A stretch of 7,371 bases of DNA from Actinomycetes bacterium (lineage in GTDB: Bacteria > Actinomycetota > Acidimicrobiia > Acidimicrobiales > Acidimicrobiaceae). The stretch is taken from the NCBI GenBank assembly GCA_021844725.1, contig JAKBSX010000127.1:1-7371 (forward strand), written 5' to 3'. A program made the translations under genes and the position numbers. The notes beneath the pieces were generated by a model. That model ran no database searches and was not told where the DNA came from. It was given only the letters and a program-made list of their open reading frames with translations. Positions 1 to 7,371 of the stretch are shown here, piece after piece (position 1 is the first letter of the stretch; every line of letters begins with the position of its first letter).

Positions 1-72
1 TTCTTTGAGGTGCCTCGATTTTTCTTTCCTTCGGTACTTCGAATAGGAGGCCAACAGAAAATTCCGAATTCT

Positions 73-108
73 CTATCTAGTGTAATACGTTCGTGCTACA
101 CTAGATAG
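73..108. promoter_or_regulatory. Inverted repeat, likely autoregulatory operator of TA cassette A
   Basis: Two perfect 12-bp arms, CTATCTAGTGTA (73-84) and TACACTAGATAG (97-108), flank a 12-nt spacer. The right arm contains the predicted -10 box and stops exactly one base before the GTG start codon at 109. A dyad covering the promoter of a TA operon is the usual site for repression by an RHH antitoxin, and such an antitoxin is encoded 300 bp downstream. The operator role is inferred; the repeat itself is directly visible. Confidence 0.6.
97..102 (+). promoter_or_regulatory. -10 box of cassette A, leaderless start
   Basis: TACACT fits the actinobacterial TANNNT -10 pattern. It ends 6 nt before the GTG at 109, so transcription would begin at or next to the start codon. 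An in-frame stop at 106-108 rules out any earlier start, and no Shine-Dalgarno sequence precedes the GTG. No convincing -35 box is seen. Confidence 0.45.
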
Positions 109-418
109 GTGAGAGATACAGATGTCTTAGACTGGAAATATCGGGCAGAGTACATACGAAGTCGATCGTTTAGACGTCCTGGTGATAAAGATATCGAACC
201 TGACTGGGCAAACGAGGCGTTTCCCGATGACGACGCTCTAATCGAGTGGCCTGACCCTGCTTCCAAATATGGCGGGAACCGATCGACTTATCGGTTACTC
301 GAAGACTGCACGTATCGTAATTGTCGTAATTTACTTACGAGACGAGAAGATTGGAGTAAATGCATGGAAGGCAAACGAAACTCAGGCCCGCCGTTATTGG
401 AGGAGAGATCATGAATAA
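109..418 (+). pseudogene. TA toxin broken by a +1 frameshift, first gene of cassette A
   Basis: The frame from GTG 109 gives a toxin-like N-terminal half, including RRPGDKDIEPDWANEA and WPDPASKYGG, up to about codon 60 (288). After that it degenerates into unrelated residues and stops at 414. Moving to the +1 frame from 290 gives IGYSKTARIVIVVIYLRD then GVNAWKANETQARRYW, ending at TAA 416-418. The joined product is about 102 aa. From memory this matches small actinobacterial proteins, often annotated as hypothetical or transposase-like, that sit upstream of RHH antitoxins and carry R[SV]xxVIGYS and NAWxAN motifs. The restored end overlaps the antitoxin start by 8 nt, as expected for a TA operon. 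Either the toxin is dead, or a programmed +1 shift at the ACTTATC site (286-292) is used, or this is a sequencing error. Confidence 0.72.
399..405 (+). promoter_or_regulatory. Ribosome binding site deciding the antitoxin start at 411
   Basis: GGAGGAG lies 5 nt before ATG 411 and inside the end of the toxin frame. It favours 411 over the upstream in-frame ATG at 360. Confidence 0.7.
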
Positions 419-737
419 TAAAAACCTTGAACAACTTATAAACCAAGAGACAGAGGCATCTGAGTTGGCACACGATGTCCCCGTATCAGATAAGGCCGTG
501 CGTAAAAGCAGGACCAAGTCAGTGATCTACTCCGTTCGGCTTACTCCCGAACAAATCAATGAAATACAGCATGTCGCGAATGCTGCCGATATTCCACCAT
601 CGGCACTGGTACGCGATTGGGTATTGCAAGGACTTACTAATGAAAAGCACGGATCGGATGTCGATGCCATATTGGATTCCTTGGTCAAGGACGTCAATCA
701 ACTTCAACGACACCTTTCCCAAGGAAAAGCGTCCTAA
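411..737 (+). CDS. RHH (CopG-like) antitoxin of cassette A
   Basis: A 108-aa protein. After a variable N-terminal segment, residues 37-75 form a ribbon-helix-helix pattern: strand SVIYSVRL, helix TPEQINEIQHVANAA, turn DIPPS, helix ALVRDWVLQGL. This family binds DNA as a dimer and normally represses its own operon while neutralising the upstream toxin. ATG 411 is chosen over the in-frame ATG at 360 because GGAGGAG (399-405) lies 5 nt upstream. It is the one gene here with a strong Shine-Dalgarno. The start overlaps the restored toxin end (418), giving translational coupling. The order is toxin first, antitoxin second, the reverse of cassettes B, C and D. The antitoxin is intact although its toxin is frameshifted. 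The family call is confident; the exact toxin partner family is less so. Confidence 0.78.
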   Translation: MNNKNLEQLINQETEASELAHDVPVSDKAVRKSRTKSVIYSVRLTPEQINEIQHVANAADIPPSALVRDWVLQGLTNEKHGSDVDAILDSLVKDVNQLQRHLSQGKAS

Positions 738-766
738 CTTAATCGTCTCAGCAGAAGCTCTTGACT

Positions 767-783
767 AGCTCCGCCAGTGGAAA
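767..783 (+). repeat. 17-bp motif left of att core 1, copy of 4204-4220
   Basis: AGCTCCGCCAGTGGAAA matches 16 of 17 bases at 4204-4220, which lies to the left of core 4. Here it ends 56 bp before the core and there 38 bp before. It may be a binding site on the left arm of the attachment site, or a trace of shared cassette ancestry. The rest of 738-839 shows no gene. Confidence 0.5.
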
Positions 784-839
784 CACAAATCTTTCGAAGA
801 GCCAGATCTTCATTATTCAAAATATGATTTTATGATTTG

Positions 840-881
840 CTCACTCGGAGGGGCTCGAACCCCCAACCCTCTGATCCGAAA
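840..881 (-). repeat. att core 1, tRNA-Arg 3' end fragment (most diverged copy)
   Basis: On the minus strand it reads from the anticodon loop through the T-arm (GGGGGTTCGAGCCCCTC) to the 3' acceptor strand of a tRNA-Arg. It differs from cores 3 and 4 at 841, 843, 853 and 881. There is no D-arm and no 5' acceptor strand, so it is not a tRNA gene. Confidence 0.8.
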
Positions 882-1027
882 TAGAAATATCTCGTTTCAA
901 ATAGTGCCTTGCGTCATCAGATTATTGCATACAGGCTGGTCTAATCGTTATTTCTGCACGTGAGTTGCAACACCGTGCAACAATTCGGTATTAACTGAAA
1001 CGGCTTTGTTGGGTTTATGTTGGGTTT
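882..1027 (+). repeat. Conserved att tail 1 with paired arm-like motifs
   Basis: The 146 bp after the core is imperfectly repeated after cores 2 and 3. Shared blocks include CTCGTTTCAA, TTATTGCATA, AGGCTG and TCTAATCGTT. It ends with two motif pairs: TGCAACA at 966 and 976, and TGTTGGGTTT at 1007 and 1018, spaced 10 and 11 bp. The two pairs are roughly inverted relative to each other (CAACA against TGTTG). Short phased repeats beside an att core are typical of integrase arm-type sites. The role is inferred. Confidence 0.65.
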
Positions 1028-1323
1028 GCCTAGACACGTAGTTATCTATTTCAGACAACAGTTTACTTCTTGAGTGGTGGCCCGAGCAATTCCAGGGGAA
1101 GTGGGAGTCCTAAAACGGCAATAGCCCATAGAAATGACTGTCAATCAAAACCACGGCGCCCTCTTGCAGAATCCCACACTCCTAGTGGCTTTTATAGGCC
1201 GACACAATTGCCTCGCTAAGTATTAGACCTGGCAAACCACTTTAAGACACCTCGATATACATAGTGTTCGCGGACATTGATAAATCGAACCGCTCGGAAG
1301 CTGAAAGTTCGAATACAATACGC
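1028..1323. other. Gene-free stretch before cassette B operon
   Basis: About 300 bp with no credible ORF in either strand. A short inverted repeat, TCGAAC (1285-1290) and GTTCGA (1307-1312), lies just upstream of the -10 box and could be part of an operator. Nothing else is recognisable. Confidence 0.5.
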
Positions 1324-1329
1324 TATAAT
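1324..1329 (+). promoter_or_regulatory. -10 box of cassette B, leaderless start
   Basis: A consensus TATAAT ends 7 nt before ATG 1337, so the transcript should begin at about the start codon. There is no Shine-Dalgarno. This supports ATG 1337 as the start rather than the in-frame codons at 1277 or 1331, which would lie upstream of the transcription start. Confidence 0.65.
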
Positions 1330-1336
1330 TATGTAC

Positions 1337-1609
1337 ATGACAACTCTTCCGGTCGCCGATGCTCGAGCTCACTTTTCAAAATTGATTGACGAAGCTGCAT
1401 CTACTCATGAACGGTTTGAAATCACACGCAACGGTATACGTGCTGCTGTGCTTCTAGGCGTTGACGACTACGACTCTCTACGCGAGACTATAGCTGTTTT
1501 GTCTGACTCGGAACTCTTAGTCGAACACGTAAAGGGTCTAGCTGCTATAGCAGAAGGTGACTATGTAGACGCTAAAGAACTCGCCCGCCTTATGCATTAT
1601 GCAGACTAA
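1337..1609 (+). CDS. Phd/YefM-family antitoxin (cassette B)
   Basis: A 90-aa protein with the Phd/YefM N-terminal DNA-binding fold: PVADARAHFSKLIDEA at residues 5-20, then FEITRNGIRAAVLLGVDDYD and SLRETIAVLSD. The acidic C-terminal half, EGDYVDAKELARLMHYAD, would wrap the toxin. The family neutralises a RelE/ParE-type partner by direct binding, and the complex represses the operon. The start is set by the -10 box at 1324-1329. The stop is directly followed by the toxin ATG (TAAATG), so translation is likely coupled. Function is confidently assigned by family; the specific name (RelB, YefM) is not settled. Confidence 0.88.
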   Translation: MTTLPVADARAHFSKLIDEAASTHERFEITRNGIRAAVLLGVDDYDSLRETIAVLSDSELLVEHVKGLAAIAEGDYVDAKELARLMHYAD

Positions 1610-1885
1610 ATGAATGAAAGCAGCTATAGCCTTCAAATTGCCGGTCCAGCCGCTCGCGCACTAGCTGAAGCACTGCCTCCAAAAATCGCAGCCGCGGCAT
1701 ATTCCTTCATCACTGGTCCATTGCTGGACAATCCGCAAAGGGTCGGTAAGCAACTTCAGCCACCACTTGCTCCGACTTGGTCGGCTCACCGAGGTGAATA
1801 CCGCGTGTTGTATCTTATCGATGAGACCTCTCGTGCAGTTAAAGTCACCGCGATCCGCCACAGAAGCGACGCCTACAGGGACTAG
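1610..1885 (+). CDS. RelE/ParE-family toxin (cassette B)
   Basis: A 91-aa basic protein of typical RelE length. It begins YSLQIAGPAARALAEALPPK (helical region), continues with PQRVGKQLQPPL and the strand HRGEYRVLYLIDE (residues 60-72), and ends KVTAIRHRSDAYRD. The Arg residues in RGEYR and the terminal RHRxxAYR are the positions conserved in RelE mRNA interferases, which cleave mRNA in the ribosome A site. It starts immediately after the antitoxin stop and has no separate promoter or Shine-Dalgarno. It looks complete. A ParE-like gyrase target cannot be excluded, but the RHRxxAY end favours RelE. Confidence 0.86.
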   Translation: MNESSYSLQIAGPAARALAEALPPKIAAAAYSFITGPLLDNPQRVGKQLQPPLAPTWSAHRGEYRVLYLIDETSRAVKVTAIRHRSDAYRD

Positions 1886-1950
1886 ATGTCACACCTAAAA
1901 AAGCCGCTAGACGACCGCGAATATCCGAAGAGCCACCACTCATGTAGCAG

Positions 1951-1992
1951 CGCGCTCGAAGGGACTCGAACCCCCAACCCTCTGATCCGAAG
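1951..1992 (-). repeat. att core 2, tRNA-Arg 3' end fragment
   Basis: Matches cores 3 and 4 at 41 of 42 positions; the one difference turns CTCGGAGG into CTCGAAGG. It is in the same orientation as the other copies. The stretch 1886-1950 before it holds no gene. Confidence 0.82.
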
Positions 1993-2139
1993 ATAGATAG
2001 AACTCGTTTCAAGTGGTGCCTTATGACGTCACGTTATTGCATATAGGCTGCTCTATTCGTTTTTTCTACACTAAGACTGCAACCACGTGCAACAATTGGG
2101 TTCTACTTGAAACGACTTTGTTGGGTTTTTGTTGGGATT
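1993..2139 (+). repeat. Conserved att tail 2 with paired arm-like motifs
   Basis: This is the counterpart of 882-1027. TGCAACC (2078) and TGCAACA (2088) are 10 bp apart. TGTTGGGTTT (2119) and TGTTGGGATT (2130) are 11 bp apart. Shared blocks include CTCGTTTCAA, TTATTGCATATAGGCTG and TGAAACGACTTTG. The motif spacing matches tail 1 although the intervening bases have changed. Confidence 0.65.
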
Positions 2140-2282
2140 TCAAAGTGGTAAATACCCCGTGGAATTGTGTATAGAAATAGCCAGTCTGGAACGACAAAGC
2201 AAATGTTGAGGAATAAAACTAAGCAAGACGACAAGATAGAAGCTACATTGGCGAATTTGAAAATCTCCAATATCAATATCCG

Positions 2283-2318
2283 TCTACCATCACAATCAAT
2301 CTACAAATCATCTACAAT
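2283..2318 (+). promoter_or_regulatory. Promoter of cassette C with TCTAC direct repeats
   Basis: The -10 box TACAAT (2313-2318) ends 6 nt before ATG 2325, giving a leaderless arrangement. TCTACCAT (2283), TCTACAAA (2300) and TCTACAAT (2311) are direct repeats, the last two 11 bp apart. That is the spacing expected for adjacent RHH dimers binding their own promoter. The interval 2140-2282 shows no gene. Confidence 0.5.
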
Positions 2319-2324
2319 AGGATC

Positions 2325-2561
2325 ATGACATCATCAGATACCACAACAGTTCGGGTTCGGCGCCCCGACTCTGAACGACTACAATCCTTAGCAAAGAGTA
2401 GGCAAACTACTGTTGTTGAGATTGTTCACACAGCAATAGAAGCTTTGGAACGTCAAGAGTTCCTAAGCGGTTTGAATAACGATTACCGACGCTTACGCGA
2501 GGATCCAGATCTCTGGAAGGAGTACTGGGCGGATCGTGATGAATGGGACTCACTGGCTTGA
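2325..2561 (+). CDS. RHH antitoxin, MazE-like (cassette C)
   Basis: A 78-aa protein. Residues 7-45 have a ribbon-helix-helix pattern: strand TTVRVRRPD, helix SERLQSLAKSR, QTTVVEIVHTAIEALERQ. The C-terminal part is acidic and aromatic-rich (DPDLWKEYWADRDEWDSLA), as in RHH MazE-type antitoxins whose tail occupies the MazF groove. The start is placed by the leaderless -10 box. The end overlaps the toxin start by 19 nt. It is expected to repress its own promoter through the TCTAC repeats. The call is by fold and context; the E. coli-type MazE (AbrB fold) is unrelated. Confidence 0.82.
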   Translation: MTSSDTTTVRVRRPDSERLQSLAKSRQTTVVEIVHTAIEALERQEFLSGLNNDYRRLREDPDLWKEYWADRDEWDSLA

Positions 2562-2893
2562 TTTGGAGTGGAGCTATTTACGATGTCAATTTGGGGCAAC
2601 CTATAGGTCACGAGCCAGGATTAACGCGACCAGCGGTTGTCGTTTCTGTGGACATTATCAATAACGGACCAGGAGAACTTGTCGCGGTGGTTCCCATATC
2701 GTCTAAGTTCTACGGCCTGCGGAGTCATGTTGAGTTGGAGCCTGGAACTTCGGGTCTCGATCATGTTTCATACGCCCGTTGTGACCAAATTCGTACAATA
2801 TCAACACGCCGCCTGTCCATTCGGCTGGGCGAAGCTGCTCAAGATGAAGTTCACAAAATCAGTCAGGCACTTCGATTTATTCTGGACCTATAA
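2543..2893 (+). CDS. mazF: MazF/PemK-family toxin (cassette C)
   Basis: A 116-aa protein with clear MazF features: SGAIYDVNLGQPIGHEPG, then LTRPAVVVSVD (R29 and P30 correspond to the conserved active-site Arg and its Pro), VAVVPISS (51-54), LEPGTSGLDHVSYARCDQIR and a closing helix ending in ALRFILDL. MazF enzymes are sequence-specific single-strand RNA endonucleases that arrest translation. The usual GE/GD before the IY is GA here, and the catalytic Thr position seems to be Ser (S53); both are readings by eye. The start at 2543 overlaps the antitoxin by 19 nt with no Shine-Dalgarno, so expression depends on translational coupling. It appears full length. Confidence 0.9.
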   Translation: MGLTGLIWSGAIYDVNLGQPIGHEPGLTRPAVVVSVDIINNGPGELVAVVPISSKFYGLRSHVELEPGTSGLDHVSYARCDQIRTISTRRLSIRLGEAAQDEVHKISQALRFILDL

Positions 2894-2956
2894 AAAGATC
2901 AAACAAACCACTGAAATATGGCTCTTCAGCTTTTATCGGGTCGCTAATTCTCTCAC

Positions 2957-2982
2957 CCATTATTATTCAACAACTTGAATGG
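2957..2982 (+). terminator. Weak stem-loop after mazF, possible terminator
   Basis: CCATT and AATGG with inner CAA/TTG can pair around the loop CAAC, leaving a six-base bulge. There is no clear T-tract, so the terminator call is weak. The rest of 2894-3002 shows no gene. Confidence 0.2.
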
Positions 2983-3002
2983 TTAATAGAATACTTATAC
3001 CG

Positions 3003-3044
3003 CGCGCTCGGAGGGACTCGAACCCCCAACCCTCTGATCCGAAG
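3003..3044 (-). repeat. att core 3, tRNA-Arg anticodon loop to 3' end
   Basis: Identical to core 4 over 44 bp (3002-3045 against 4258-4301). On the minus strand this copy also keeps a full anticodon arm: stem TCTGA, loop CTTCGGA, stem TCAGA, giving anticodon UCG (Arg). No D-arm or 5' acceptor strand follows, so no tRNA can be made from it. Confidence 0.85.
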
Positions 3045-3190
3045 TCAGATAAATTCGTTTCAAATGGCGCCTTGTGGCGTCAAATTATTCCATATAGGCT
3101 GGTCTAATCGTTGTTTGCGCAAGGAGGCTGTAACAAGGTGCGACCATTCGGCGCCAGATGATCCGAAAATGTTGGGTTTTTGTTGGGTCT
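3045..3190 (+). repeat. Conserved att tail 3 with paired arm-like motifs
   Basis: Shares TTCGTTTCAAATGG, ATATAGGCTGGTCTAATCGT and the closing TGTTGGGTTT (3170) plus TGTTGGGTCT (3181) with tails 1 and 2. The TGCAACA pair is degraded here to TGTAACA (3129) and TGCGACC (3139) but keeps its 10-bp spacing. Confidence 0.6.
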
Positions 3191-3416
3191 GCTTTGGGGC
3201 GTTATTTTGGTAAAAACCCGCTAGCTTACTTTCACCCAACCACTATTTCACTCACTACTTTCTACCGGCAGATGAAGCCGAGTCGGCGAAATTGACAGAA
3301 TGCGCAATCATGGAATACCGAGTTAAAGTGGCTCAACCAAGGAGTTGAACTATCACCGACCACATTTGGTTCTGACAGCGTAGCACACGGTCAAGAGCAA
3401 CGTAATACGAGAAGGT
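3191..3416. other. Gene-free stretch between att tail 3 and vapC
   Basis: About 225 bp with no credible ORF. A short inverted repeat, AACCAA (3335-3340) and TTGGTT (3366-3371), is present but has no T-tract. It lies 3' of vapC (minus strand) and would contain that operon's terminator, which I cannot identify. Confidence 0.4.
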
Positions 3417-3833
3417 TCAAAGTATGATGAGGTTTCCCCGATAACCCAATTTGCTCTTTGTGGGCCAGCCTCGGTCAGTGGTAACGAGTACATCAGCCCC
3501 TCTTTGAATAGCGGTCGCCACGACTAGGGCATCGGGAAGCTTAAGTTTTTGGCCATGACGAGCCCGAAGTTTCGCTGCCTCAACGGCAATCTCTGAATCA
3601 AGTTCCACAATCAATAATGGTAACCGTTCAATAAATTCACATATGGCCGCGACTGAAGATTCACCCCTACGCGCCGGAGACACGAGCGACTCAGCAAAGG
3701 CCGATGCTGGCAGGGCGATTCGGTCGCCACGTTGTTGTGCACTTACGAGTTCTCGCTTTGCCCCACTATGATGCGCATCGTCCTCATCAAGAAAGGCAAT
3801 TAGAATGCCAGCGTCGACTAGAGTCAGTCCCAT
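3417..3833 (-). CDS. vapC: VapC-type PIN-domain ribonuclease toxin (cassette D)
   Basis: A 138-aa PIN-domain protein of normal VapC length. The acidic metal-binding residues expected in the family are visible: D7 in LTLVDAGILIAFLD, E48 in SAFAESL, D101 in LKLPDALVVATAI, and D120 in LVTTDRGW. VapC proteins are Mg-dependent RNases, several of which cut initiator tRNA or rRNA; the target here is unknown. It starts 10 nt inside the end of vapB (ATGGGACTGA), so the two are translationally coupled. The pair runs opposite to the TA operons of cassettes A-C. All key residues are present and the toxin is probably active. Confidence 0.9.
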   Translation of the reverse strand: MGLTLVDAGILIAFLDEDDAHHSGAKRELVSAQQRGDRIALPASAFAESLVSPARRGESSVAAICEFIERLPLLIVELDSEIAVEAAKLRARHGQKLKLPDALVVATAIQRGADVLVTTDRGWPTKSKLGYRGNLIIL

Positions 3834-4066
3834 TCATTGCGCAGTTGATCAAGAATTCTCTGATCGAATACTCCCGTCAGGGATCCAGAGAACCGCTCCA
3901 GAACGTCGTCTTGGCGTTCAAGTACCACCCGTCCTGGGCCTTCAGCCCGCGCCATCACTCGCTCACCGGCTTCCAGACCCGCAATGCGCATCGCATCAAT
4001 CGGAATGGTTACCTGGTGCTTCACACTAATTTTCGTGCTCCGACCCTGATTCTTTACTTTCTCCAT
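3824..4066 (-). CDS. vapB: VapB antitoxin, AbrB/MazE swapped-hairpin fold (cassette D)
   Basis: An 80-aa protein. Residues 10-50 have the AbrB pattern STKISVKHQVTIPIDAMR, then GLEAGERVMARAEGPGRVVLE, the DNA-binding double-psi hairpin. The C-terminal segment DDVLERFSGSLTGVFDQRIL resembles the toxin-binding tail of VapB proteins. It neutralises VapC and the complex should repress the operon. The reading frame is open back to 4225, but ATG 4066 is chosen: the preceding residues are not family-like and a -10 box lies 8 nt upstream. The end overlaps vapC by 10 nt. Confidence 0.85.
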   Translation of the reverse strand: MEKVKNQGRSTKISVKHQVTIPIDAMRIAGLEAGERVMARAEGPGRVVLERQDDVLERFSGSLTGVFDQRILDQLRNEWD

Positions 4067-4074
4067 ACTTGTAA

Positions 4075-4080
4075 AGAATA
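4075..4080 (-). promoter_or_regulatory. -10 box of vapBC, leaderless start
   Basis: Minus strand TATTCT ends 8 nt before ATG 4066, the same short spacing as in cassettes A-C. There is no Shine-Dalgarno before the ATG. Confidence 0.45.
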
Positions 4081-4203
4081 GCACCCATTCGCTCCAAGCA
4101 AAACATCCAAAAATAGAAAACCAAATTACACCGAGAGCAATTGAGCAACCGTCTGTTAATTTACGAGATACATCATAAGATTCGTTATACAATCCAGATT
4201 GGC

Positions 4204-4220
4204 AGCTCAGCCAGTGGAAA
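4204..4220 (+). repeat. 17-bp motif left of att core 4, copy of 767-783
   Basis: AGCTCAGCCAGTGGAAA, one mismatch from the copy left of core 1. Cores 2 and 3 have no clear copy. The rest of 4081-4258 shows no gene. Confidence 0.5.
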
Positions 4221-4258
4221 AGCAAGCCTATTCCCTATAATTATGAGTGCACCTATAG

Positions 4259-4300
4259 CGCGCTCGGAGGGACTCGAACCCCCAACCCTCTGATCCGAAG
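4259..4300 (-). repeat. att core 4, integrase-proximal tRNA-Arg 3' end fragment
   Basis: Identical to core 3. Unlike cores 1-3 it is not followed by the arm-motif tail. To its right lie 145 bp of different sequence and then the 3' end of the integrase gene. This position corresponds to the recombination site next to the integrase in a phage or ICE. Confidence 0.85.
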
Positions 4301-4445
4301 TTAGAAGCTTCAGGGCTTCTACCAGGAACGATGTAAAACAGAAATGACTAAATACCGATACTGACCTGCTATTACTGTTCACTAGTGTACATAGGTGTTT
4401 CTGGGTAATATTTTCGTAACTGTACACCAACTACCCACCAAAACA
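4301..4445. other. Integrase-side arm of att site 4
   Basis: Gene-free DNA between core 4 and the integrase stop. It has a 7-bp stem (TAGAAGC 4302-4308, GCTTCTA 4315-4321) and GTGTAC (4385) with GTACAC (4422). It lacks the TGTTGGGTTT pairs of tails 1-3, so it would be the opposite arm of the attachment site. That role is inferred from position. Confidence 0.35.
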
Positions 4446-5918
4446 TCAATCACCCTTGGCCGGGTTTGACCCGTATCGCTTAGACATAGAATGGGCCACA
4501 AGTTCACTATCCTGATCAGTCAGATGTGAGTAGACATCAAGTGTCACGGTGATTGAACTGTGGCCGAGGGTTCGTGAAACTATTTGCATGGGGACTCTAT
4601 CGTTGAGCAGTTGACTTGCAGCCGTATGCCTCAACTCGTGTACGCTCCACGCTCTGCCATCTTCGTGCGGTTCTATTCCAGCTTTCTTGCATGCTGAGGT
4701 AAAGCGCTTTTGGAGGTTATCCGGTCTGATGTGGGAACCATGGGAATTAGTGAAGATTAGATCTGGTTGTGTTCTGCCATCCTTAACTGCAGCACCAAGT
4801 TGTGAACGTCTATGATCCTCGAGCTCAGCAATAAGGAAGTCTGGTAGTCTCAATCGTCTTTTTGACTTATCGGTTTTTAGGTCACCCCTTGCGACTTTCC
4901 CGCCTTCGATCTTGAGCTGACTAGTTACCGTAATTGATTCCCCATCAAAGTCGCTCCAGCGGAGACCTAAGGCTTCTCCTCTTCGAAGCCCGGTGGTTAT
5001 CATCAAGGCCCAAAGAGGACCTAGTTCTGAACCCTTGGTGGCCTCAATTAACCGCTTAGCCTGATCTTGGCTTAGTGCATGTTTCTCTGGAAGCGGTCTT
5101 CCACCAGCTGGTTTGGTTTCAGCAGCTACGTTTTTAGATGCCAGCCCTTCAGCAATTCCCCACTTGAGTGCCATCCCAAGTACCGCTCTGCACAATCGTA
5201 ATGTGTTTGCAGAGTAAGTGAGAGTTCTTTTGCCTCTCGTGTAAGAAGTTCCTTCCACCGCATGAAGCCAATTCTCCACCTTCGATTTGTTGAGATCTTT
5301 GATCTTTATGCGACCCAAGGATGGAATAATATGAGTGTTCGAAATGTCACGATATTGCTCAAAAGTTCTGATAGCAAGCCCTTTGCCTTGATTACCGGTC
5401 TTTACCCTGATACTGGCCAGCCACACTTCCACTAGCTCGCTGACCGTGGATGAGCCCTTTAGTAGACCCCCATTTGATTTGATTTCTTTTAGCTCTTCCA
5501 GCGCCTGGAGGGCCTCGAGTGGCGGATTCTTGGTCTTCCTATCGACCTTGATCAGCTTTCGTTTCTTTACCTGTTTGCCACTCGGCTCCGTCATGGTCAC
5601 CTGCGCAACCCAGGCTTTTCGATCAGCACGGTAATACAGTGAACCTTCTTGGGGGCTTCGCTGCTCCCGCTTCACGGCTGCCACATTCTTAGGGATGATT
5701 CCGACCTTCATGGCTTCGGCCAACGCCATGGAGAGAACCGACCGCAAGCCCTTGTCCTGGCTGCAAACCTTCTCTACTAGCTCCGGGGTAATCTCAGATA
5801 GGTCTAGAAAAGCCAGGGCCTCTTTCAGGGCCTCAACGGCACGGGCATAGCGCTGCAGCGTCCGGGGAGAAACCACTCTCGAGGCCAACCATTGCTCCAA
5901 CCATTCCCCCGTATCCAT
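4446..5918 (-). CDS. int: Tyrosine recombinase/integrase with an extra N-terminal core-binding-like domain
   Basis: 490 aa, longer than the 370-420 aa usual for this type. Residues 285-475 form the catalytic domain: R312 (TTGLRRGE), K348 (LKTDKSK), H427 and R430 (SVHELRH), H453 (TLGHSSIT) and nucleophile Y463 (DVYSHL), so all catalytic residues are present. Residues 158-265 are a SAM-like core-binding domain. Residues 92-146 (GSLYYRADRKAWVAQVT and after) look like an AP2-type arm-binding domain. Residues 4-81 resemble a second core-binding domain. It would cut and join DNA at tRNA-Arg-type cores such as that at 4259-4300. ATG 5918 has a -10 box 6 nt upstream and no Shine-Dalgarno. No excisionase gene is visible. 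Confidence 0.93.
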   Translation of the reverse strand: MDTGEWLEQWLASRVVSPRTLQRYARAVEALKEALAFLDLSEITPELVEKVCSQDKGLRSVLSMALAEAMKVGIIPKNVAAVKREQRSPQEGSLYYRADRKAWVAQVTMTEPSGKQVKKRKLIKVDRKTKNPPLEALQALEELKEIKSNGGLLKGSSTVSELVEVWLASIRVKTGNQGKGLAIRTFEQYRDISNTHIIPSLGRIKIKDLNKSKVENWLHAVEGTSYTRGKRTLTYSANTLRLCRAVLGMALKWGIAEGLASKNVAAETKPAGGRPLPEKHALSQDQAKRLIEATKGSELGPLWALMITTGLRRGEALGLRWSDFDGESITVTSQLKIEGGKVARGDLKTDKSKRRLRLPDFLIAELEDHRRSQLGAAVKDGRTQPDLIFTNSHGSHIRPDNLQKRFTSACKKAGIEPHEDGRAWSVHELRHTAASQLLNDRVPMQIVSRTLGHSSITVTLDVYSHLTDQDSELVAHSMSKRYGSNPAKGD

Positions 5919-5924
5919 GGGGTT

Positions 5925-5930
5925 AATTTA
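5925..5930 (-). promoter_or_regulatory. -10 box of int, leaderless start
   Basis: Minus strand TAAATT ends 6 nt before ATG 5918. No Shine-Dalgarno is present, matching the leaderless pattern of the TA operons. Confidence 0.4.
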
Positions 5931-5971
5931 GCACCGAAGGGGCTCTGGGAATTTAAGTTCCGCGATAGCAG

Positions 5972-5984
5972 GGTTTTTAAAACC
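5972..5984. repeat. 13-bp near-palindromic repeat, copy 1
   Basis: GGTTTTTAAAACC, identical to 6163-6175. It lies 41 bp upstream of the predicted int -10 box. It is probably a protein-binding site for control of int or replication; the role is unproven. Confidence 0.45.
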
Positions 5985-6025
5985 TTACACATGGCAAGGC
6001 GGTGGAGGAGAAAATCTGTGGGTTT

Positions 6026-6049
6026 ACTTAAGCTGGTACCAGCTTAAGT
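6026..6049. repeat. 24-bp perfect palindrome, operator or terminator
   Basis: Arms ACTTAAGCTGGT and ACCAGCTTAAGT meet with no spacer at 6037/6038. A run of six T follows on the plus strand (6049-6054), so it could end a plus-strand transcript, but no plus-strand gene lies upstream. A dimeric DNA-binding protein site is equally likely. Confidence 0.5.
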
Positions 6050-6162
6050 TTTTTAGTATCACTCTCCCGCGAAGCAGATCTTACTAAAGAACCTTCTCTG
6101 CACTGACGTAAGGGGGAAAAAGACTTTTCTTAGAGACCAGCTTTACCATGTGTAGGGTTTAA

Positions 6163-6175
6163 GGTTTTTAAAACC
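6163..6175. repeat. 13-bp near-palindromic repeat, copy 2
   Basis: Identical to 5972-5984, 191 bp away, with the 24-bp palindrome between them. The flanks are partly mirrored (GGG before copy 1, CCC after copy 2; CTTAC after copy 1, TTTAAG before copy 2). Confidence 0.45.
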
Positions 6176-6202
6176 CCAGAGTGTGCGACCTTTAGTGGTA
6201 AG

Positions 6203-6240
6203 GGGATTTGATGAGGAGTTTGAACGACTCATCAAATCCC
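6203..6240. other. Long stem-loop in the replication region
   Basis: A perfect 13-bp stem, GGGATTTGATGAG (6203-6215) with CTCATCAAATCCC (6228-6240), encloses a 12-nt loop. No T-tract follows on either strand, so it is unlikely to be a simple terminator. Its position next to the iterons suggests a role in origin function such as single-strand initiation, but that is inference. Confidence 0.55.
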
Positions 6241-6266
6241 TACTAGTTAATACTAGTTATTACTAG
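6241..6266 (+). repeat. AT-rich 10-bp direct repeats beside the iterons
   Basis: TACTAGTTAA, TACTAGTTAT and TACTAG start at 6241, 6251 and 6261. AT-rich short direct repeats next to iterons are typical of the DNA-unwinding element of theta-type plasmid origins. Confidence 0.5.
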
Positions 6267-6269
6267 CTC

Positions 6270-6332
6270 CCCGCCGATATGGGGACACAACCCGCCGATA
6301 TGGGGACACAACCCGCCGATATGGGGACACCC
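6270..6332. repeat. Three tandem 21-bp iterons, probable replication origin
   Basis: Three head-to-tail units start at 6270, 6291 and 6312. The first two are identical; the third matches through 19 bases, then has CC for AA. The central sequence is CCGCCGATATGGGGACAC. A 21-bp period is two helical turns, the standard spacing for Rep-bound iterons. They lie directly after the stop of the putative rep gene, i.e. on its 3' side. Confidence 0.7.
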
Positions 6333-6333
6333 A

Positions 6334-6819
6334 CTATTTCTGAGAGTTGTCAGGATTGTTGACGCTAACGCCCTGAGGCTGGCGGTAGCTGAGCATCGTC
6401 CCCCCGTTGTAAAAGCTGATGCCAAGTGCCCCTAACTCGGCTTCCCACTTCCGCACTTCCCGCCTCAGCCTGTGCTTTGAGGTCTCCCGCATCCCCGGCT
6501 GGAACGCCCCTATGGTCGTCAAAACGCCATCGAGAGATGTTGCTGTCCCATTTTTATGTGTAAGCATATGTAGCGCCAGCGCATGGGCCGCCCCGCTTTT
6601 GATGCTGTTCAGGACTGGTAGCATAGTTTTGTACCGCACCACCAGACTAGTGTCGTAAATTTGCATCCACGCAGTTGAAACAACCACTGCGAGCAGCGGA
6701 CGAGTATCTAATTCTCCTGCCGGACCTTTCAGTCTGCCAGTTGGCATATCCACCCGACTCAACACTGCTGCAACTCGCGGAAAGTTTGCACCGATATACA
6801 TTGTGCCCGTCGATGTCAA
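6334..6819 (-). CDS. Putative plasmid replication initiator (Rep), short and possibly N-terminally truncated
   Basis: 161 aa from a TTG at 6819, or 155 aa from ATG 6801; the frame is closed by a stop at 6832-6834. The middle resembles a winged-helix domain of theta-type Rep proteins: YDTSLVVRYKTMLPVLNSIK, SGAAHALALHMLTHKNG, SLDGVLTTIGAF, then the basic helix SKHRLRREVRKWEAELGALG and a wing ISFYNGGTMLSY. Iterons immediately downstream support the call. Known initiators of this type usually carry two such domains in 250-330 aa, so the N-terminal half seems absent. No Shine-Dalgarno is evident. Residues before about 40 have no recognisable match. Rep identity is by pattern and context only. Confidence 0.55.
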   Translation of the reverse strand: MTSTGTMYIGANFPRVAAVLSRVDMPTGRLKGPAGELDTRPLLAVVVSTAWMQIYDTSLVVRYKTMLPVLNSIKSGAAHALALHMLTHKNGTATSLDGVLTTIGAFQPGMRETSKHRLRREVRKWEAELGALGISFYNGGTMLSYRQPQGVSVNNPDNSQK

Positions 6820-7099
6820 TCTTTTGCCACCTCAAGTCGAAGATGCCGCTGTTGGGCAGCTCAAGCAAATCTTGTCAAGGGATGATGTTGCTAAGACCGC
6901 TCACGAGACAGTACAAGCACGGGCGCTGCAGAACTCTCAGAATTTGCAACAATCTTTGAGGAAACGACAATCACGTAAAGCAAAGGTAGTGCCTCAGCAA
7001 CCATTGGCTCCGTCTTTAGACCCGTCGTTGATCCCCCCGATTGATGGCACGCAGCTACCGGGTCAGGGCGGGATTGGGGGGTTGGATGAAATTACTTAG
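6803..7099 (+). CDS. Hypothetical protein with Gln-rich helix and Pro-rich tail, possibly 5'-truncated
   Basis: 98 aa from GTG 6803; the frame is open back to 6659 without a better start. Residues 1-60 are charged and probably helical (VGQLKQILSRDDVAKTAHET, ARALQNSQNLQQSL), followed by a basic patch LRKRQSRKAK and a Pro/Gly-rich tail (PQQPLAPSLDPSLIPP, LPGQGGIGG). Such tails are common at the C-terminus of large conjugation or membrane-associated proteins, but I do not recognise a family. Its start overlaps the 5' end of the putative rep gene on the other strand. With both genes seeming to lack N-terminal parts, a rearrangement junction near 6800-6830 is possible. It converges on the next gene; the two stops overlap at 7096-7099. 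Confidence 0.45.
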   Translation: MPVDVNLLPPQVEDAAVGQLKQILSRDDVAKTAHETVQARALQNSQNLQQSLRKRQSRKAKVVPQQPLAPSLDPSLIPPIDGTQLPGQGGIGGLDEIT

Positions 7100-7371
7100 C
7101 GGGCCCCATTACCGTAACAAGTAGCCGTTAACGCCGAGCCAAAAGCTGCTCCCTGTCCTCGTAGGTTACTGTTCCCCGCAGACCAGATAGTTGAACATCC
7201 CGATGGAGGCGGCGTATAACTCAAACCTCCGCGCTTAGTTGTTTGATTACTTTTAGGCAGTATTGAATTCTGATTCCCGGATTTCGATGAGCTATTGCCA
7301 TTGAGCGTGATCGAACCTGATGCACTACAGCTGTTACTAGTGCAATAAAAAGAAGAGGTAGACGTCGGATT
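7096..7371 (-). CDS. C-terminal part of a Ser/Asn-rich, cysteine-containing (probably exported) protein
   Basis: 91 codons are open from the window edge to TAA at 7098-7096; the start lies outside. The segment is rich in Ser, Asn, Thr and Gly (SCSASGSITLNGNSSSKSGN), has four Cys (fragment positions 10, 15, 59 and 85), and a TPPPSGCSTIWSAGNSN stretch. It has few charged residues and no membrane segment. This composition fits a secreted or surface protein with disulfides, for instance a pilin-like or adhesin tail encoded by a mobile element, but no family is recognised. The convergent stop overlap with the plus-strand gene suggests compact, possibly native, gene packing at this end. Confidence 0.45.
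   Translation of the reverse strand, partial: NPTSTSSFYCTSNSCSASGSITLNGNSSSKSGNQNSILPKSNQTTKRGGLSYTPPPSGCSTIWSAGNSNLRGQGAAFGSALTATCYGNGAR

Follow-up and report, generated by a model that had tools for sequence, protein, structure and literature searches.

Organization of the locus

The window analysed here is the whole stretch of 7,371 nucleotides at positions 1 to 7,371 of contig JAKBSX010000127.1 (assembly GCA_021844725.1), from an actinobacterium of the family Acidimicrobiaceae. It carries a tandem array of short units with toxin-antitoxin (TA) genes, separated by copies of a tRNA-derived repeat, and a tyrosine integrase gene next to the last copy (Table 1). The original prediction, made from the letters alone, had described an integron-like array of TA cassettes, with attachment (att) repeats between units of about 1.1–1.3 kb, the fourth of which (unit 1) is cut by the window edge. 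This layout was confirmed: four copies of a 42-bp core lie at spacings of 1111, 1052 and 1256 bp, the three complete units (2, 3 and 4) encode pairs of different families (Phd/ParE, ribbon-helix-helix (RHH)-like/MazF and AbrB-like/PIN, respectively, by Pfam, except that the AbrB-like antitoxin scores below its cut-off and the RHH-like one lacks a significant match), and the 3' end of the integrase gene lies 146 bp from core 4. Comparison with related loci showed that varied cargo stands behind one and the same core, that units recur with their borders at cores, and that the units hold no convincing integrase gene. On balance, we consider it probable that these units are non-autonomous cassettes whose movement depends on a tRNA-targeting integrase, supplied in trans or by an adjacent element.

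Read on the minus strand, the core corresponds to a tRNA-Arg(TCG) gene from which the 5' half is missing. Of the four copies, 3 and 4 are letter-identical to intact tRNA-Arg(TCG) genes of relatives (L019 and L024), core 1 differs from the intact gene at 2 of 38 positions and core 2 at 1 of 38. ARAGORN called no tRNA in the window, and the Rfam tRNA score of core copy 3 (27.3 bits) is just under the threshold of 29. Repeat copies 1–3 reach 191 nt (copies 2 and 3 being 67% and 76% identical to copy 1), each of these cores being followed, on its anticodon side, by a conserved tail of ~150 nt; copy 4 ends at the core, without a tail. The tails are pairwise ~63–90% identical and carry GTTGGG repeats, 11 bp apart, close to their end. 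A sequence-only tail model built from 14 copies covers ~155 positions; the window tails belong to its training set.

Table 1 Features of the window (positions in nucleotides of the window)
Feature	Position	Strand	Evidence or remark
Unit 1, presumed toxin frame	109–414	+	No PHROG match; second frame overlaps, split or broken
Unit 1, second frame, looks like a gene end	269–418	+	Weak match to PHROG 9985, E 0.001
Unit 1, NikA/MobA-like protein, presumed ribbon-helix-helix antitoxin	360–737	+	PF21983, E 9.5e-6, 26.1 bits vs cut-off 27
Core 1	839–880	-	3' half of tRNA-Arg(TCG)
Tail 1 (attP-like arm)	878–1032	+	Tail model E 9e-33 (training copy); GTTGGG at 1008 and 1019
Unit 2, Phd/YefM antitoxin	1331–1609	+	PF02604, E 5e-19 (scanned as 1277–1609)
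Unit 2, ParE toxin	1610–1885	+	PF05016, E 1e-6
Core 2	1950–1991	-	42-bp repeat, 3' half of tRNA-Arg(TCG)
Tail 2	1986–2144	+	Tail model (training copy); GTTGGG at 2120 and 2131
Unit 3, RHH-like antitoxin	2325–2561	+	Position and look only; no significant Pfam match
Unit 3, MazF/PemK toxin	2543–2893	+	PF02452, E 2e-22
Core 3	3002–3043	-	42-bp repeat; just under the Rfam tRNA threshold
Tail 3	3038–3194	+	Tail model (training copy); GTTGGG at 3171 and 3182
Unit 4, PIN (VapC-like) toxin	3417–3833	-	PF01850, E 1e-16
Unit 4, AbrB/MazE-like antitoxin	3824–4066	-	PF04014, E 0.005, below cut-off
Core 4, point where window and L017 part	4258–4299	-	Comparison with L017
ACCAA repeats 11 bp apart, presumed arm-type sites	4426–4441	+	Read in the sequence; presumed role
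Tyrosine integrase, 490 aa	4446–5918	-	PF00589, E 1e-24

Recurrence of the units in other loci

Positions 1–4300 of the window correspond to positions 345–4644 of locus L017 (contig C34 of the metagenome-assembled genome (MAG) G001, Actinomycetes bacterium LSA3.bin6), with 99.95% identity over 4300 bp, and past the end of core 4 the identity of the two sequences is at the level of unrelated DNA. In L017, this core is followed by a full tail, two more units (the first with a YafQ/ParE-type toxin and a weakly RelB-like partner (E 0.04), the second with HicA, a HicB-like partner and a fragment of a major facilitator superfamily gene) and a further core 54 bp before the contig end. Thus, within near-identical DNA, the same core precedes different cargo, and the repeats, whose invariance between strains would have spoken against the predicted cassette model, do vary between the window and L017. 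An assembly error at the repeat would be a very improbable source of this difference: the core is a repeat of ~45 bp and L017 stems from a metagenome assembly, but the same cassettes stand beside other neighbours at cores in L077, L079, L018 and L078.

Unit 1 was found in L077 (genome G414; 94.1% identity over 880 bp), where it ends at an intact tRNA-Arg(TCG) gene, and in L078 (G423; 92.9% over 949 bp), where a core and tail follow. By comparison, glmS of G001 is 74% identical in G423 and matches G414 only in patches of 64–78%, and a second chromosomal region is 99% alike in G001 and G428, 76% in G423 and without a match in G414. Since unit 1 is thus far closer between these genomes than their chromosomes are, its distribution points to transfer, with the caveat that the MAG G001 may be composite: G001 and G428 are 99% identical in one region and 64% in a stretch beside tRNA-Arg(TCG), and therefore the presence of two arrays in one genome is not claimed.

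Two further loci contain the MazF unit (unit 3) bordered by cores at either end: L018 (83%) and L079 (82%), the latter next to an intact tRNA-Arg(TCG). In L080, next to tRNA-Arg(TCT), only its left 1.0 kb is present (73%). L018 and L079 are 96–97.5% identical in this unit up to the right core and 53% thereafter; their identity (95.6%) was dropped as evidence of transfer because the chromosomal region of G001 and G428 is 99% alike. Another unit, encoding a type II restriction-modification (RM) system (methyltransferase, E 8e-161; restriction endonuclease, E 5e-87), is common to L018 and L082 (83% over 2033 bp). These RM units lie at L018:2114–4139 and L082:3746–5752, the latter also holding a DUF3644 protein. 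In bins of 80 bp, identity was 69–100% up to the core and ~42–55% past it for window/L017, window/L077, window/L079 (right side) and L018/L079 (right side); the bins use fixed offsets, and those of L078 are out of register owing to gaps.

The predicted cassette model is supported both by different cargo behind the same core (window/L017) and by the presence of some cassettes in other arrays and species. This recurrence suggests that the cassettes are mobilized singly by an integrase. Spread mainly by homologous recombination or together with larger elements, with the cores marking old insertions, appears improbable: tails that are ~63–90% identical could pair for such recombination, but several breakpoints fall at the 42-bp core and unit 1 stands beside an intact tRNA gene in G414.

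Tails, tRNA targets and delimited units in related genomes

The original prediction had proposed a search of actinobacterial genomes and plasmids for arrays with a different cargo order, and arrays with other cargo were found in related genomes. BLAST with a tail was positive in 7 of the 42 genomes of G001's family and the tail model in 9 of 40 (G428 and G003 left out); together they place the tail in 10 of 42 genomes. The matches are weak in three of the ten (G413, G426 and G427; E 6e-10 to 5e-6), and no tRNA core was seen where the tail lies in G413. Across 198 genomes of the order, the tail model recognized only G001 (0 of the 197 others) in a scan that applied stricter filters and scored 14 candidates per genome, and which may undercount.

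In six loci, ARAGORN called an intact tRNA gene at the right-hand end of the array: Arg TCG in L077 and L079, Arg ACG in L083, Arg TCT in L080, Gln TTG in L081 and Met CAT in L113. The tail was thus seen at five tRNA types, the Met CAT case depending on a weak tail match (L113, E 6e-5); the match in L083 is also partial (57 nt only).

Fourteen units could be delimited: 13 have a core at either end, and in the remaining one (L082) the second core is degenerate. Thirteen are 0.46–2.4 kb in size and one is 5.5 kb. TA genes are present in 11 of the 14: units 2–6 of the window and L017, the MazF units of L018, L079 and L080 (the last encoding a short MazF of 75 aa), unit 1 in L077 (with only the antitoxin as an open frame), the MazEF unit of L083, and the L113 unit, in which a DUF5615 PIN-like toxin is preceded by a small gene resembling an antitoxin. 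The MazF unit accounts for 4 of these 11, and counted by type, TA cargo makes up 8 of 11 types; the others are RM, an AHSA1/SRPBCC protein and a unit without an open reading frame (ORF) of 55 aa wholly inside it. An open unit in L111 is HigBA-like.

The prediction would also fail if each unit were the remnant of a separate full-length integrative element, which may still be the case, although a convincing integrase was absent from all 14 delimited units. A tblastn search with 120 integrase queries gave no convincing match in them and recovered three positive controls. One integrase-like match in unit 3 (33% over 54 aa, E 3.7e-4, with 1 of the 120 queries) was taken as chance. Conjugation or mobilization genes were not noticed among the unit ORFs, as listed for the relative loci with overlapping ORFs omitted, except for the NikA-like antitoxin of unit 1.

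The integrase and its neighbourhood

The integrase of the window is a phage-type tyrosine integrase, with a PF00589 domain and the conserved R, HxxR, H and Y. R312, H427-x-x-R430, H453 and Y463, which we take to be its catalytic residues, are invariant in six aligned integrases (window included), two of which (L001 and P0019) look like one protein. Among the best 120 of 1072 integrase relatives, the first 41 (window included) are 59–100% identical and the rest at most 39%; this gap sets the integrase family apart as a separate clade in that list. Matches with an E value of 1e-60 or better occur in 5 of the 42 family genomes.

Members of this family, or their 3' remnants, adjoin tRNA-derived cores in L083, L084 (remnant), L026, L027 (remnant) and L085, and family members adjoin tRNA-Gln in L086 and L002. 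In L083, the integrase gene, truncated at the contig end, is followed by a core, the MazEF unit, a second core, the SRPBCC unit and an intact tRNA-Arg(ACG); L084 has an integrase 3' remnant, then a core and a tail. The border of the integrase element and that of the MazEF cassette in L083 are identical over 57 nt. Repeats 11 bp apart are found in the 3' flanks of the integrase genes, of the CAACTACCGAC type in L002 and L004 and in inverted form in the window and L087. Beside the core of some units, on the side opposite the tail, lies a motif like CCTGCACTTATGTRG. With a clear match defined as at least 11 of 15 positions, a score equalled by no more than 1 of 500 shuffles, the motif is clear in all four integrase-element borders; borders of this type had served to derive it. 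Separately, at L004:1960–2633 a full integrase faces a C-terminal integrase fragment across an apparent tRNA-derived core, with 11-bp repeats on both sides.

Attachment regions compared with those of integrons, phages and plasmids

The integron kinship suggested by the original prediction was rejected. The integrase scores 40.4 bits with the integron integrase model TIGR02249 (cut-off 265) and 19.5 with NF011946 (cut-off 435), and no conserved fold was predicted for the tail (0 pairs). Folding energies, calculated for one strand, are mostly like those of shuffles (z from -2.7 to +1.5 in 18 tails).

The tail model also matches the tail weakly on the reverse strand, which drew attention to an imperfect inverted repeat, CGTTTCAA ... 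TTGAAACG, inside the tails of the window, L017 and L077, its arms ~80–90 nt apart. It forms 72.7% of its pairs, compared with 70.3% in shuffles (31 of 500 as high) and 28–41% in slid versions. As its covariation is not above that of shuffles (72/500), it is read as perhaps representing paired protein-binding sites. The tail resembles the arm of a double-stranded, phage-type attachment site (attP) and not a folded integron cassette site (attC).

The window had no match in plasmid DNA (near mode) or phage DNA (distant mode), and scans of IMG/VR for the core, integrase and tail confirmed nothing. An integrase match was obtained in 2264 phage records, all below 60% identity (25.5–29.3% for 10 among the matches listed). 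Two plasmid records matched the MazF unit, each over 47 nt covering the core; around the core match, no TA or integrase gene is annotated in the Arthrobacter plasmid stretch.

Proposed mechanism and its alternatives

We propose that the units would be small integrative cassettes, non-autonomous but each equipped with an attachment region composed of the tRNA-derived core and the tail. A tRNA-targeting tyrosine integrase, probably of the family adjoining core 4, would join the cores at the two ends into a circular cassette, and the circle would insert at the 3' end of an intact tRNA gene or at a core within an array; the integrase may act in trans or from a neighbouring element. Insertion would rebuild the tRNA, and arrays would therefore grow at the tRNA side. 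Judging from how the six loci with an intact tRNA are oriented, the window and L017 differ on the tRNA side. Loss of a cassette would be selected against by its TA or RM cargo. The acting integrase, the circle, the action in trans and the selection by addiction are steps that we infer.

More tentatively, the units may form a class of integrase-free addiction cassettes that parallels integrons on double-stranded phage-type sites, with one conserved attP arm, cores from at least five tRNA genes (Arg TCG, ACG and TCT; Gln TTG; Met CAT), movement in trans by a tRNA-targeting integrase family, and a core that is exchangeable under related cargo. The MazF unit occurs at Arg TCG, and a longer form of it at Arg TCT. 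If such a system operates, single TA or RM modules would pass from one chromosome to another with no plasmid or phage of their own, and a cassette system with integron-like shuffling on phage-type attP sites would be added to those known. The arrays also offer a natural system for testing whether TA cargo stabilizes site-specific arrays.

Several observations weigh against the proposed mobilization by this integrase family. The CCTGCACTTATGTRG motif is clear in only 4 of 12 cassette borders and is absent from units 1 and 3 and from the MazF and SRPBCC borders. Unlike in L083, the integrase of the window lies on the anticodon side of its core, its repeats are inverted relative to those of the tails, and an element with integrase and tail together was not seen among the loci examined. 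Moreover, the integrase family is present in 4 of the 10 tail genomes (G001, G414, G423 and G428; remnants were counted, not systematically searched), and L019 (positions 1–2824) has another integrase, resembling those of actinomycete integrative and conjugative elements, by a RepSA gene (PF20199, E 3e-106) at an intact tRNA-Arg(TCG), so that several integrases share this target. The core-4 difference is one junction each in two assembled sequences. Nor do all borders fall at cores: the likeness of L017 and L077 to the left of unit 1 ends ~50 bp short of the L077 tail, L018 and L079 are alike ~25 bp further left than the left core, L018 and L082 have a core border in common on one side of their RM units and diverge within the unit on the other, and L080 retains just the left portion of the MazF unit.

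These irregularities bear on an alternative in which the units are cis-mobilizable elements (CIMEs), that is, decayed remnants of integrative and conjugative or integrative and mobilizable elements that kept their att sites, accreted in tandem and depend on an adjacent element for movement in cis. In Streptococcus, published CIMEs and micro-CIMEs show this architecture, also at tRNA-Lys; in the account consulted, they form tandems with att repeats at the 3' end of a gene, some lack an integrase, and the most decayed are farthest from the target gene (PMC7563491). Similarly, the Dehalococcoides ssrA islands are described as tandems with copies of the tmRNA 3' end, 15 of them without an integration module and regarded as possible cis-mobilizable elements (PMC3146451). 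The 57-nt border shared by a cassette and an integrase element in L083, and the internal differences of some units (the RM unit, L080), would agree with such an origin. Nevertheless, we regard it as rather unlikely, as the MazF unit is bounded by cores on both sides in three loci, unit 1 keeps its right border in three loci with different neighbours, one homologous tail stands beside five tRNA types, and the 14 units yielded no integrase and, apart from the NikA-like antitoxin of unit 1, no noticed mobilization or conjugation genes. Movement of non-autonomous cassettes by a tRNA-targeting integrase thus remains our preferred reading.

Comparison with known systems

The pdif modules of Acinetobacter plasmids are exchangeable, often carry TA genes and are bounded by Xer sites served by XerC/D. 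The units described here are likewise exchangeable modules, often with TA genes, but their borders are tRNA halves; no scan aimed at dif-like sites was made.

Integrons and clusters of attC sites lacking integron integrases (CALINs) are also arrays of exchangeable cassettes, as found here, whereas the present arrays have no IntI, no conserved attC-like fold and a tRNA-derived core, and hold two-gene TA operons in both orientations. According to the portions of the literature consulted, Alteromonas integrons frequently carry TA genes and CALIN arrays are integrase-less (PMC11389934, PMC4119200); helper-dependent elements and CALINs are reviewed in PMC11389934.

The statement of the original prediction that nothing of this kind has been described was too strong, because tandem elements at tRNA or tmRNA sites, some of them integrase-less, are published. 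Like CIMEs, the units stand in tandem with att direct repeats at the 3' end of a gene, and no integrase was found in the 14. They differ from them in being mostly 1–2.4 kb, in sharing one homologous attP-like arm, in carrying mostly TA genes, and in the recurrence of some of them at other tRNA genes and in other species. The Dehalococcoides islands, as far as their description was available, are similar in the number of tandem islands with copies of the target gene 3' end, but theirs is a serine recombinase and their cargo includes reductive dehalogenase genes (PMC3146451).

Gene cassettes of Actinomarinales, Alteromonas and Methylophilaceae are reported to target tRNA genes and to be accompanied by partial tRNA repeats (PMC7771536, PMC4119200, PMC10872708). 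These additive flexible genomic islands share with the present arrays the variable cassettes at a tRNA and the partial-tRNA repeats, and Actinomarinales are actinobacterial as well; a shared attP arm and cargo dominated by TA and RM genes are not described for them in the text available, and the Actinomarinales are said there to lack TA systems (PMC7771536, PMC4119200, PMC10872708). Tycheposons, in the sections consulted, are tRNA-targeting elements of 4–200 kb with a tyrosine recombinase (PMC10872708, PMC11389934); the array described here shares the tRNA target and the tyrosine recombinase, but its units are smaller, save for the one of 5.5 kb, and hold no convincing integrase.

A literature search, with most subscription journals outside it and sources available in part, did not find integrase-free TA cassettes with a shared attP arm described. 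Tandem integrase-less elements at tRNA or tmRNA genes are already known; what is new is addiction cassettes, mostly of 1–2 kb, that share one attP-like arm.

Cargo genes and flanks of the window

Unit 1, cut by the window edge, encodes a NikA-like antitoxin; its presumed toxin gene is divided between two frames that overlap. Right before its genes, at positions 73–108, lies a 17-bp inverted repeat (88% complementary), possibly an operator. The genes of unit 4 are oriented opposite to those of units 1–3. A promoter of its own had been predicted for each cassette; this was not confirmed, the 5 promoter-like matches in positions 1–4500 comparing with 6.4 ± 2.3 in shuffles. Given the orientation of its genes, unit 4 at the least must carry one.

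The right flank of the window (5919–7371) has a sole match, of 289 bp and 86% identity, in G001 (1 of 14 genomes). Beyond the integrase, at positions 6270–6332, there are three iteron-like tandem repeats of 21 bp with inverted repeats nearby; the ORFs scanned around them have no Pfam or PHROG match.

Units with other or unassigned borders

Tail copies without a recognized tRNA core occur at L108:821–1761 and L109:7222–8145, with similar-looking proteins of 248 and 261 aa whose family was not recognized. In G336 (L051:134–3640), RHH and Fic/Doc genes occupy a 1.7-kb unit bounded by a core copy and an intact tRNA-Arg(ACG), with a different tail and no integrase noticed among its ORFs; further out in L051 there is a pair of AbrB/MraZ-like and PIN-like genes, the PIN-like gene being below cut-off. 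In G043 (L050:5516–7266), a 1.65-kb unit encoding an Ig-like repeat protein lies between two tRNA-Arg cores that share yet another tail. Since the units of L051 and L050 carry other tails, the cassette principle may be wider than the tail family of the window.

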